A DNA stretch of 26,760 nt from a virus. Within the stretch, counting starts at the first letter, position 1; each line of letters starts with the position of its first letter. The DNA lies in the IMG/VR virus record IMGVR_UViG_3300025674_000311, positions 1 to 26,760 of that record; one strand, 5' to 3'. The notes beneath the pieces were generated by a model, which searched no databases, was not told where the DNA came from, and worked only from the letters and a program-made list of their open reading frames with translations. Shown here in pieces: positions 3,449-18,200 of this stretch. The position numbers and the translations under genes are program-made.

Positions 3449-3925
3449 ATGTCTGAATTTTCCGAGCTTTCTTCTCTTTCCTCGATTCTGCTTGCGATTG
3501 GGGGCGAAGCTCCGATCGACGTTGCCGAGTCGATCCTTCTTCTTCCTATTCATCGGCGACCCGCTGCGATTGCTTCCTTTATTCGCAAGCGCGCCGCTGC
3601 CGCTGCTCGATCTGCTACGCTTCGGGTCAAGGCAGCTCGTCGCGAGTTTGCTTCGATCGTTATTCCGAAGCCGACTCCTCGCATCACTCGCGCTGCTGCC
3701 GATCATACGCTTCGGCTTTCTTCCGGTTTCACCGATTCTCCGGCGATGAAGGCATTCCTCGCGAACGGTGGTTCGATCGAGGTTCTTCCGACGCGGAACT
3801 CCGTCGGTTTCAAGCGAAACAAGATTCGCGCTGGTTCCGGTTCGACGGTCACTGCGCTCCATAAGTCTCGCGCTGCTCACTCTCGCGTCGCTCGCGAGAT
3901 TCGTTCTTCTCGGTCTTCTTTCTAA
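3449..3925 (+). CDS. Basic Ala/Ser/Arg-rich protein, unknown
   Basis: A 158-residue protein with a strong ribosome site. Residues 35-75 are extremely Ala/Arg-rich (SFIRKRAAAAARSATLRVKAARRE) and probably a long basic helix; the C-terminus (118-158) is again Arg/Ser/Lys-rich. No catalytic motif is visible. It is the first gene after the early promoter, 26 bases before the VWA gene, and shares that gene's unusual GC-rich codon use. A nucleic-acid-binding or host-takeover role is possible. I do not recognise a family. Confidence 0.7.
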   Translation: MSEFSELSSLSSILLAIGGEAPIDVAESILLLPIHRRPAAIASFIRKRAAAAARSATLRVKAARREFASIVIPKPTPRITRAAADHTLRLSSGFTDSPAMKAFLANGGSIEVLPTRNSVGFKRNKIRAGSGSTVTALHKSRAAHSRVAREIRSSRSSF

Positions 3926-3951
3926 TCTAGCCTAACGAGGTCTTCAATATA

Positions 3952-8932: not shown

Positions 8933-9008
8933 GCCGACTTAGCTCAGATGGAAGAGCGCGATACTTGTAATATCGAAGTCGTCGGTTCGATTCCGACAGT
9001 CGGCTCCA
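8933..9008 (+). tRNA. tRNA-Thr (anticodon UGU)
   Basis: A 76-base cloverleaf: acceptor GCCGACT with AGTCGGC, anticodon arm CGATA-CTTGTAA-TATCG giving TGT, T arm GTCGG-TTCGATT-CCGAC, discriminator T and encoded CCA. It reads ACA and by wobble other ACN codons. Confidence 0.95.
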
Positions 9009-9159
9009 TTTTGATTATCTGTAACCACTGTGCGGAAACCGCTGGTCTGCGCCAGTCCCGGACGCTCGTCACGGCGGAGCCGGTTAGGGCGAGGTAGCAG
9101 TAAGGACCGCCAACAGAAGATGCCGCCTCTGTGACGAGAGGCGGGGACTTCGTTTTTAC
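9009..9159 (+). other. Structured GC-rich spacer between tRNA-Thr and tRNA-Arg
   Basis: A 150-base gap with no ORF, clearly GC-richer than its neighbours. CTCGTCAC (9065-9072) can pair over eight bases with GTGACGAG (9131-9138). Alternatively CCGCCTCT (9123-9130) pairs with AGAGGCGG (9137-9144), with five T bases a few bases further on. The two pairings compete for the same bases. It begins with a 34-base repeat also found at 10496. It may be a small RNA, a processing spacer or the remains of lost tRNA genes. Confidence 0.5.
9027..9060 (+). repeat. 34-base direct repeat, copy 1 (tRNA-Leu 3' half-like)
   Basis: Identical over 34 bases to 10496-10529. It contains GCGG-AAA-CCGC and CTGG...CCAG inverted repeats. 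It resembles the variable arm and T arm of the tRNA-Leu at 9638-9724 with a deletion, and lacks the acceptor end here. Confidence 0.8.
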
Positions 9160-9637: not shown

Positions 9638-9724
9638 GCCGGGTTGGTGGAATTGGTATACACAGAAGACTTAAAATCTTCCGACCGCAAGGTCTTGCGG
9701 GTTCGAGTCCCGCACCCGGCACCA
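9638..9724 (+). tRNA. tRNA-Leu (anticodon UAA)
   Basis: An 87-base type II tRNA with acceptor GCCGGGT/ACCCGGC, anticodon arm GAAGA-CTTAAAA-TCTTC giving TAA, a long variable arm (CCGACCGCAAGGTCTT region), T arm GCGGG-TTCGAGT-CCCGC and encoded CCA. It reads UUA. It lies eight bases after tRNA-Lys, and fragments like its 3' half recur at 9027 and 10496. Confidence 0.95.
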
Positions 9725-9760
9725 TTATTTTGATAGTAAATAGTGAAAGGAATAATAATA

Positions 9761-10309
9761 ATGAAGACTTATAGTCGCGATGAACTGGAAGAAATTCTCA
9801 GGCTGCACGAACTCTGGGTCAATCGAAAGAAAGGCGGCAAACGCGCGGACCTGATCGGCGCGAACCTGACTGGCGCGTACCTGCGCGGAGCGTACCTGCG
9901 CGGAGCGAAGCTGACCGGCGCGAACCTGCGCTGGGCGGACCTGAACTGCGCGTTCCTGCCCGGCGCGAACCTGACCGGCGCGGACCTTATCGACGCGAGC
10001 ATGACTAGCGCAAACCTGTTTTGCGCGTCTCTGGTCGGCGCGACGTTGCGCCGCGCAAAACTGACCGACGCGAACCTGCGCTGGGCGAACCTGACCGACG
10101 CGAACCTGCGCTGGGCGAACCTGACCGACGCGGACCTGAGCAACGCGAACCTTCGCGGCGCGTATCTGGACGGCGCGGAACTGTTCGGCGCGGAACTGTT
10201 CGGCGCGGACCTGTTCGGCGCGGATCTTCGCAGCGCGGATCTTCGCAGCGCGGATTTGTCTGACGCAAACCTGACCGACGCTCTACTCGACGAGCGCACT
10301 AAGTTTTAG
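9761..10309 (+). CDS. Pentapeptide-repeat protein
   Basis: A 182-residue protein. I use ATG 9761 because AAAGGA at 9746-9751 is correctly spaced; a GTG at 9743 would include the ribosome site. Residues 1-32 are a helical N-terminus with a basic patch (NRKKGGKR). From about 35 to 175 the protein is made of A(D/N/Y)LxG-type pentapeptides, roughly 28 of them, which fold as a right-handed quadrilateral beta-helix. Some family members mimic DNA and protect topoisomerase, but most have no known role. The DNA is much richer in GC than its neighbours and uses GCG and CTG almost exclusively. Exact tandem copies (30 bases near 10069-10128, 15 bases near 10224-10253) indicate growth by duplication and recent transfer. 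Confidence 0.85.
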   Translation: MKTYSRDELEEILRLHELWVNRKKGGKRADLIGANLTGAYLRGAYLRGAKLTGANLRWADLNCAFLPGANLTGADLIDASMTSANLFCASLVGATLRRAKLTDANLRWANLTDANLRWANLTDADLSNANLRGAYLDGAELFGAELFGADLFGADLRSADLRSADLSDANLTDALLDERTKF

Positions 10310-10311
10310 AA

Positions 10312-10491
10312 ATGGCAAAAAGAAATAAGTATCTTCTTCGTCACGCTTGTTCTGCATGTAAAGCATCTGTCTACTTCTGCGAAGACCCAGCGTGCAGATG
10401 CTTCCATCACGCATTCGACACGTTCGATGAGTACGAACACGAGCGAACGAGCTGCAAAATCGAAGATGTGGTAGAGATTTTTACTAAGTGA
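10312..10491 (+). CDS. Small Cys/His-rich protein, possible zinc-binding
   Basis: A 59-residue ORF starting two bases after the pentapeptide gene stop, so translation may be coupled. It holds CSAC (13-16), then CEDPACRCFHH, giving six or more Cys and several His in the first 40 residues, as in small zinc-binding proteins, although the spacing does not match a named finger. The C-terminus is acidic. It ends just before the repeat with tRNA-Leu remnants. The function is unknown. Confidence 0.5.
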   Translation: MAKRNKYLLRHACSACKASVYFCEDPACRCFHHAFDTFDEYEHERTSCKIEDVVEIFTK

Positions 10492-10495
10492 AACT

Positions 10496-10541
10496 ACTGT
10501 GCGGAAACCGCTGGTCTGCGCCAGTCCCGCACCCGGCACCA
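10496..10541 (+). pseudogene. 34-base repeat copy 2 joined to a tRNA-Leu 3' end (tRNA remnant)
   Basis: 10496-10529 equals 9027-9060. The run from 10523 (GTCCCGCACCCGGCACCA) continues exactly as the T-arm and acceptor end of the tRNA-Leu at 9638-9724, including CCA. Upstream, ACCGC-TGGTC-TGCG aligns with the tRNA-Leu variable arm ACCGC-AAGGTCTTGCG. No 5' half is present, so it cannot be a working tRNA. It is best explained as a decayed or recombined tRNA-Leu copy. Confidence 0.65.
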
Positions 10542-10561
10542 TTTTTAACCGTTGTCATTAG

Positions 10562-10684
10562 GGGGCTCCTCTTGACCCAAATGAGTGGTAGCATTTGGCT
10601 GATGGGAAAAGATGAATAATGATGAGCCCCGCGTTGTCTCCTCCGGGTTAGCGTTTGCCTATCATTAATCTTTTCCACTACCAC
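10562..10684 (+). ncRNA. Putative pseudoknotted structured RNA in the tRNA cluster
   Basis: No ORF or tRNA is present, but several helices are evident. P1 is GGGGCTC (10562-10568) with GAGCCCC (10624-10630). P2 is the hairpin CCAAATG (10577-10583) with CATTTGG (10592-10598). P3 is GGAAAAGAT (10605-10613) with ATCTTTTCC (10668-10676), stacked on P4, AATGAT (10618-10623) with ATCATT (10661-10666). P1 crosses P3/P4, an H-type pseudoknot. The P2 loop GTGGTAG (10585-10591) is complementary to CTACCAC (10678-10684), a second crossing contact. Six T bases follow, then tRNA-Pro. T4 also keeps small stable RNAs (species 1 and 2) in its tRNA cluster. No known class was matched; the topology differs from HDV-like and tmRNA folds. 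Confidence 0.6.
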
Positions 10685-10694
10685 ATTTTTTATA

Positions 10695-10771
10695 CGGGGA
10701 TTAGCTCAGTCTGGTAGAGTGTTCGCTTTGGGAGCGAAAGGTCGTAGGTTCAACTCCTACATCCCCGACCA
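10695..10771 (+). tRNA. tRNA-Pro (anticodon UGG)
   Basis: A 77-base cloverleaf: acceptor CGGGGAT with ATCCCCG, starting with C1 as bacterial tRNA-Pro does, anticodon arm TTCGC-TTTGGGA-GCGAA giving TGG, T arm GTAGG-TTCAACT-CCTAC and encoded CCA. It reads CCA and by wobble CCG. Confidence 0.95.
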
Positions 10772-17673: not shown

Positions 17674-17736
17674 TTCAACAAATGCCAAAGTTGGGTTTGT
17701 TGAATATAACTTGCTTATTATAAGGAGAAAAAGCAA
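17674..17736 (+). promoter_or_regulatory. hsp20 leader: two hairpins, possible RNA thermometer
   Basis: Hairpin 1: TTCAACAAA (17674-17682) with TTTGTTGAA (17696-17704), with an inner CCA/TGG. Hairpin 2: TTGCTT (17711-17716) with AAGCAA (17731-17736), whose loop holds the ribosome site AAGGAG (17722-17727) and whose stem includes the A of the start codon. Alphaproteobacterial hsp20 genes are known for ROSE-type RNA thermometers that mask the ribosome site, with a conserved UUGCU. TTGCT is present here, but the base pairing differs from classical ROSE. Confidence 0.5.
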
Positions 17737-18200
17737 TGAATAAAATCACAACGTCATATAGAATGCCCAATGTTTTCAACGAACTTCGCAACGATCCGTT
17801 TCTTTTAGGATTCGATCAAATCTTTGATCGCCTTCTATCTACGGGAGTCGGAGCTTCGCAAGGGGCATCTTATCCTCCCTACAACATCGTAAAGGTTTCT
17901 GATAATCAGTTTCGTATTGAACTTGCGATTGCGGGATTTACTGAGGATGAAGTTTCGGTAACTGTTCTGGATGATAAGCTGACTGTCGAGTCCGACAAGA
18001 AGAATGATGTGGTTGCCGAGAATGAAGTTAGACTTCATCAAGGAATTGCGGAGCGTAACTTCAAGCGAGTATGGACATTGAGTCCTACTGTTGTTGTTAC
18101 TGGAGCGGATCTGGTCAATGGTCTTTTGACGATTACGTTGGAGAATGTTGTACCGGAAAAGGATTCTCCGAAAAAGATTCCGATCAACAAAACTTTGTAA
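17736..18200 (+). CDS. Small heat shock protein Hsp20
   Basis: A 154-residue protein with the three parts of IbpA/Hsp20 chaperones: a hydrophobic N-terminal arm (1-45, PNVFNELRNDPFLLGFDQIFDRLL), an alpha-crystallin domain (about 48-138; YNIVKVSDNQFRIELAIAGF, RNFKRVWTLSPTVVV, NGLLTITLENV) and a C-terminal I-x-I anchor IPI at 148-150. Such proteins hold unfolding proteins and form oligomers. hsp20 is a frequent auxiliary gene of T4-like cyanophages. It has its own promoter, structured leader and strong terminator, so it is an independent transcription unit. Confidence 0.95.
   Translation: MNKITTSYRMPNVFNELRNDPFLLGFDQIFDRLLSTGVGASQGASYPPYNIVKVSDNQFRIELAIAGFTEDEVSVTVLDDKLTVESDKKNDVVAENEVRLHQGIAERNFKRVWTLSPTVVVTGADLVNGLLTITLENVVPEKDSPKKIPINKTL

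Follow-up and report, generated by a model that had tools for sequence, protein, structure and literature searches.

The window analysed here is a stretch of 26,760 nucleotides from a virus (IMG/VR record IMGVR_UViG_3300025674_000311) that contains a cluster of tRNA genes. Within this cluster lies the subject of this study, a candidate structured RNA at positions 10562-10684 (hereafter the element), which runs in the direction of the tRNA genes between the 3' end of a tRNA-Leu and tRNA-Pro. From position 10312 onwards the order is an ORF (10312-10488, 59 aa), a truncated copy of another structured RNA, the tRNA-Leu 3' end, the element and tRNA-Pro (Table 1). The cluster also contains a gene for a pentapeptide-repeat protein at 9761-10306 (PF00805, E 2e-47); in the contigs L158 and L159 a similar gene is found after tRNA-Arg instead. 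Further downstream, positions 17676-17741 match the ROSE_3 RNA thermometer with 48.3 bits, above the Rfam gathering score, which in a phage hints at an alphaproteobacterial host or at a gene acquired from one. A first reading of the locus, made from the sequence only, had noted that the element holds neither an ORF nor a tRNA. This agrees with the present analysis, in which no supported ORF was found in the element and ARAGORN, RF00005 and the tmRNA models left it unmatched, so that a tRNA-like or tmRNA-like identity is rejected.

Table 1. Features of the element and its surroundings (positions in the window; helices are written as 5' strand/3' strand).
Feature	Position	Strand	Remarks
Second structured RNA	9023-9152	+	intact; upstream of tRNA-Arg, 1.4 kb upstream of the element
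Second, truncated copy of this RNA family (5' part)	10477-10532	+	88% identical to 9008-9063
Duplicated tRNA-Leu 3' end	10523-10546	+	96% identical to 9706-9729
Helix P1 (5' head and loop strand)	10562-10568/10624-10630	+	GGGGCUC/GAGCCCC, 7 exact Watson-Crick pairs
P1 3' strand	10624-10630	+	inside the P2 apical loop, abuts P2 at 0 nt; P1 x P2 pseudoknot
Hairpin H	10577-10598; stem 10577-10583/10592-10598	+	CCAAAUG/CAUUUGG, 7 exact Watson-Crick pairs
Hairpin H loop	10584-10591	+	8 nt
Helix LT (H loop and 3' tail)	10585-10591/10678-10684	+	GUGGUAG/CUACCAC, 7 exact Watson-Crick pairs
3' tail (LT 3' strand)	10678-10684	+	
Hairpin P2, overall	10605-10676	+	3-nt bulge 10614-10616
Hairpin P2, outer part P2a	10605-10613/10668-10676	+	GGAAAAGAU/AUCUUUUCC, 9 exact Watson-Crick pairs
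Hairpin P2, inner part P2b	10617-10623/10661-10667	+	UAAUGAU/AUCAUUA, 7 exact Watson-Crick pairs
Possible small hairpin P3	10631-10654; 10631-10636/10649-10654 and 10638-10640/10645-10647	+	weak sixth helix, within the 30-nt loop 10631-10660
Spacer to tRNA-Pro	10685-10694	+	ATTTTTTATA; similar spacers after tRNA genes of the same phage
tRNA-Pro (UGG)	10695-10771	+	

The surroundings of the element are a patchwork. The ORF together with the next 44 bases matches the contigs L157, L158 and L159 at 89-93%, and in these contigs the same ORF is followed by the intact structured RNA and then by tRNA-Arg. In the window, the truncated copy of this RNA is fused to the last 19-24 bases of tRNA-Leu at the sequence AGTCCCG. 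As far as can be inferred from such joints, the cluster has evidently been reshuffled through recombination at short sequences common to RNA genes.

The element itself can be described as two hairpins in series, H and then P2, with the P2 loop receiving the 5' head of the molecule (helix P1) and the H loop receiving the 3' tail (helix LT). Its five helices comprise 37 Watson-Crick pairs (7, 7, 7, 9 and 7 bp), so that 74 of the 123 nucleotides are paired. P1 crosses P2, and LT crosses both H and P1, while P2 is enclosed by LT in a nested manner without any crossing between the two. As read from the sequence, the junctions are very tight, with 1 nt (A10584) and 0 nt at LT, 0 nt between P2b and P1 and 1 nt between P2 and LT. 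Taken as H-type pseudoknots, H and LT would form a motif with an L1 of 1 nt and an L2 of 0 nt over 7 bp, and P2b and P1 one with a 0-nt junction. Junctions of these lengths are tolerated by H-type pseudoknots.

The pairings listed in the sequence-only reading are all exact at the coordinates it gave, and a compact pseudoknotted RNA is still the best way to read them, with a topology that differs slightly from the one first described. The inner helix that was counted as six pairs is present and extends to seven, the first helix does cross the third (P1 and P2 in the present nomenclature), and the contact of the loop with the tail, which was thought to cross both of these helices, crosses P1 as claimed but encloses P2.

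Folding energies do not decide between the knotted form and a simpler one. The best nested fold has -40.8 kcal/mol (z -2.1 against shuffled sequences, calculated for a slightly longer stretch) and includes LT and P2 but leaves out P1 and H; P1, a strong helix, is thus missing from the nested state. H, P2 and P3 together amount to -28.8, to which P1 adds a stacking contribution of -17.8 and LT one of -13.2. The penalty for a pseudoknot is about 9.6 each (the value of Dirks and Pierce), and with two such penalties a rough accounting gives about -40.6 for the knotted state. The two folds are therefore equal within error.

The 3' side of the element has to be considered together with tRNA-Pro, which starts 10 nt beyond the end of the element. 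The sequence-only reading had taken the T run at 10686-10691 as the end of the RNA, but the run is not distinctive in this genome: CCATTTTTTATA is the usual flank of tRNA-Pro, similar runs follow other tRNAs, and the reported end of the element, ACCACATTTTTTATA, resembles the usual flank of a tRNA gene here (GACCATTTTTTATA for tRNA-Pro). As the terminator scan is also empty at this site, a terminator is rejected as an explanation of the run. A flank of tRNA type may mean that maturation of the element's 3' end proceeds as it does for tRNAs. A promoter scan found no sigma-70-like promoter nearby.

These properties bear on the possibility that no separate RNA is made and that the structure acts in cis in the tRNA precursor, serving the transcript with tRNA-Pro and the SprT-like gene as a barrier, an attenuator or a processing signal, either as the knot or as a nested stem of LT and P2 followed by the U run. 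The position of the element 10 nt upstream of tRNA-Pro, in the direction of the tRNAs, would fit such a role, as would the nested fold, which closes through LT right before AUUUUUU. Against it speak the scan, which passes no terminator-like site here, and the ordinary nature of the U run; moreover, a barrier has no need of five interlocking helices, and in related phages tRNA-Pro follows tRNA-Leu without any spacer. This explanation is regarded as unlikely.

The element is an orphan of one phage lineage. No Rfam family matches it at the gathering score, and up to E 10 only tRNA-Pro and a chance snoRNA match are reported, in agreement with the sequence-only reading, which had been unable to assign a ribozyme, riboswitch or tmRNA class. 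A blastn search of phage records returned no match to the element, and no copy of it turned up when related records were searched in full at the DNA level. Among relatives sought in viral contigs through PhoH, the SprT-like protein, CobS and the small ORF, the element is present only in a near-identical contig (IMG/VR 3300007539_001965, L002), which is 99.96% identical to the window over 7 kb and differs in the element at a single position, 10640 (C to A), in the loop that may form P3. In the contigs L003-L008, whose PhoH is 75-83% identical, tRNA-Leu abuts tRNA-Pro with neither spacer nor element, while in L010 and L074 other small ORFs occupy this place, and the PhoH neighbourhoods of four large phages contain no tRNA cluster. 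A pattern of the LT helix and the tail gave only chance matches in viral and genome contigs, with the other helices missing. A covariance model of the element (R1) had no match in loci totalling 587 kb or in 48 distinct records taken whole, a search that lacked a positive control and is therefore weak. Since no homologue was found beyond the near-identical contig, there is no covariation for the element, and its absence from relatives implies that it does not serve a core function. One of these relatives shows a different peculiarity of the region: in L010 (3697-4033), tRNA-Leu(UAA) is apparently split by a group I intron (RF00028 at 3718-3937, 49.6 bits where the gathering score is 50, E 7e-12), while the tRNA-Leu of the window has no intron.

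An interval that is missing or different in all relatives could also have arisen at the level of DNA, as inverted repeats left by a rearrangement or as a small non-autonomous mobile element, at a site between tRNA-Leu and tRNA-Pro that would be a hot spot of recombination. The location of the element directly 3' of the fusion between the truncated RNA gene and the duplicated tRNA-Leu 3' end is in line with this. By contrast, terminal repeats and a second copy in the window are both missing, and the arms interleave (P1 with P2, H with LT), unlike the simple palindromes of a DNA cruciform or a transposon end. An origin of this kind is therefore considered rather improbable.

The exact complementarity at 10562-10684 is real and very unlikely to have arisen by chance, as the sequence-only reading had proposed. 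In 100,000 dinucleotide-preserving shuffles of a 135-nt stretch, at least five compatible helices of at least 7 bp were never obtained and four helices were obtained four times; in a single shuffle, helices of at least 6 bp together supplied 37 or more compatible pairs. Allowing for about 200-400 windows of the size of the element in 26.7 kb, the chance of such a find across the whole window is estimated at about 0.4% or less. When 130-nt segments were scanned along the 26.7-kb window and along a further 641 kb of phage loci, five helices were reached only at the element. A descriptor of the layout at full strength found only the element and its near-identical contig in 1.63 Mb (both strands); the few other, weaker matches were AT-rich or showed very long loops and are judged to be due to chance. 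That the element is a non-functional spacer with accidental complementarity is thus held to be improbable, given these counts and the near-perfect tiling of paired segments with zero-length junctions. A small share of probability is still kept for it because the stretch was selected by a reader, perhaps out of many windows scanned, and a single lineage without covariation leaves some room for it.

A second structured RNA in the same cluster can be examined by comparison. It has a long arm with the apical loop CGUCAC (9067-9072) and a second hairpin (9116-9151) with the apical loop GUGACG (9131-9136). Four distinct family sequences align over about 130 nt: the window copy, L157:4038-4166, L158:4175-4304 (identical in L159) and L171:9856-9984. 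Three of the four adjoin a tRNA, while the contig L171 has no tRNA in the 12.3 kb examined. RNAalifold predicts 39 pairs for the alignment, ten of which show compensatory changes. By counting, 99.4% of cells are paired. The covariation score is higher than in any of 500 shuffles or any slid version, figures to be read cautiously as they rest on four sequences, three of them from related phages. The two apical loops are complementary along their whole length of six bases and do not vary among the four members, as expected of a kissing contact, although invariance by itself is not evidence of covariation. In Rfam, neither the window copy nor the L171 copy has a match that reaches a family threshold. 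A covariance model of the family (R3) recovers its members with scores of about 150 bits and has no other significant match; in the window it finds only 9023-9152 and does not match the element. The two RNAs share the cluster, the strand and pairing between distant loops, but the upstream family, GC-rich and built from two arms with complementary apical loops, is unrelated to the element in sequence and layout. With its support from covariation, the upstream RNA is at present a better candidate than the element for a new phage RNA in the window.

A further, independent and strongly knotted stretch lies in a different phage contig (L045, 1164-1289), directly after tRNA-Ala. It contains five compatible helices (1164-1172/1198-1206, 1176-1182/1210-1216, 1184-1189/1260-1265, 1217-1223/1283-1289 and 1227-1233/1268-1274) with several crossings, and none of 20,000 shuffles was as good. 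It matches neither Rfam nor the phage records and is thus another orphan.

The interpretation to which we incline, with confidence only slightly better than even, is that positions 10562-10684 encode a small structured non-coding RNA that is cut from the tRNA transcript, has its ends clasped, is stable and acts in trans. An RNA of about 123-135 nt would be made from the strand of the tRNA genes within the polycistronic tRNA transcript. It would fold into the hairpins H and P2, with the head in the P2 loop forming P1 and the tail in the H loop forming LT. The 3' end would be set by the RNase P cut at tRNA-Pro and by subsequent 3' trimming that is halted at LT. With both termini clasped, the RNA should resist exonucleases and accumulate, and it might then act in trans during infection as a decoy or scaffold for a host RNA-binding protein or nuclease. 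In support of this interpretation stand the excess of five helices, the tight junctions, the co-directional position between tRNAs and the lack of a supported ORF; by analogy, the RNA with covariation in the same cluster and the knotted stretch after tRNA-Ala in L045 also point towards it, as do, more generally, the structured RNAs known from the tRNA regions of other phages. Against it stand the restriction to a single lineage, which leaves no covariation, the nested fold of about equal energy, the failure to find a sigma-70-like promoter nearby and the absence from relatives. A broader proposal is offered more tentatively, and we doubt it more than we believe it: the element could be the first member seen of a new structural class, in which the second hairpin holds the head in its loop and the first hairpin the tail, and phage tRNA clusters could host varied, unrelated and compact RNAs that are locked through their loops and act in trans as stable molecules during infection, such as the element, the 9023-9152 family and L045 1164-1289.

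If the RNA of the element is made, its compact knotted fold is of a size accessible to SHAPE, crystallography or cryo-EM. Together with the neighbouring kissing-loop family and its covariation, it would then recommend tRNA clusters for a systematic search for undescribed phage RNAs, which are missed by searches that depend on sequence homology. Should the RNA not be made, the element is an example of the extent to which exact complementarity can mislead when taken alone.

Among known RNAs, the compactness of the element brings the ribozymes of the hepatitis delta virus (HDV) type to mind. The strand order of HDV-like ribozymes is P1-P2-P3-P1'-P4-P2', and the element resembles them in its compactness, in the crossing of P1 and P2 and in the possible hairpin between the 3' strands of P1 and P2. 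Its own order is P1-H-(LT)-P2-P1'-P2'-LT', with the first hairpin flanking the P2 5' strand from the opposite side, before P2 and not between P2 and P1, and with LT as an extra loop-tail helix. That the element represents an undescribed class of riboswitch or small self-cleaving ribozyme, with a nested pseudoknot of HDV-like compactness, is very improbable in view of this order, of the lack of a match to any Rfam ribozyme or riboswitch model, those of HDV included, up to E 10, and of the presence of only tRNA-Pro, and no regulated gene, directly downstream.

As a putative small RNA cut from a tRNA transcript, the element can be set beside the stable RNAs of phage T4, rnaC and rnaD, which adjoin tRNAs and whose roles are unknown (PMC3014915; PMC9697503). 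With 139 nt (rnaC, species 1) and 119 nt (rnaD, species 2) they are similar in size to the element and, like it, are situated within or next to the tRNA genes of a phage, on the same strand; the T4 RNAs come after the tRNAs, whereas the element sits between them. The analogy with T4 drawn in the sequence-only reading thus holds for the location but not for sequence or for an excess of long helices: there is no sequence match, for which reason the two RNAs are rejected as homologues, and compatible helices of at least 6 bp number three in rnaC and none in rnaD, no more than in shuffles. GOLLD and ROOL are structured RNAs of phages and prophages that are often found near tRNA islands and are likewise without a known function; ROOL contains multiple pseudoknots, many members of GOLLD are longer than 800 nt, and Rfam has profiles for the two families (PMC12286853). 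Their covariance models do not match the element. T4, GOLLD and ROOL all demonstrate that the tRNA regions of phages do host structured RNAs (PMC3014915; PMC9697503; PMC12286853).
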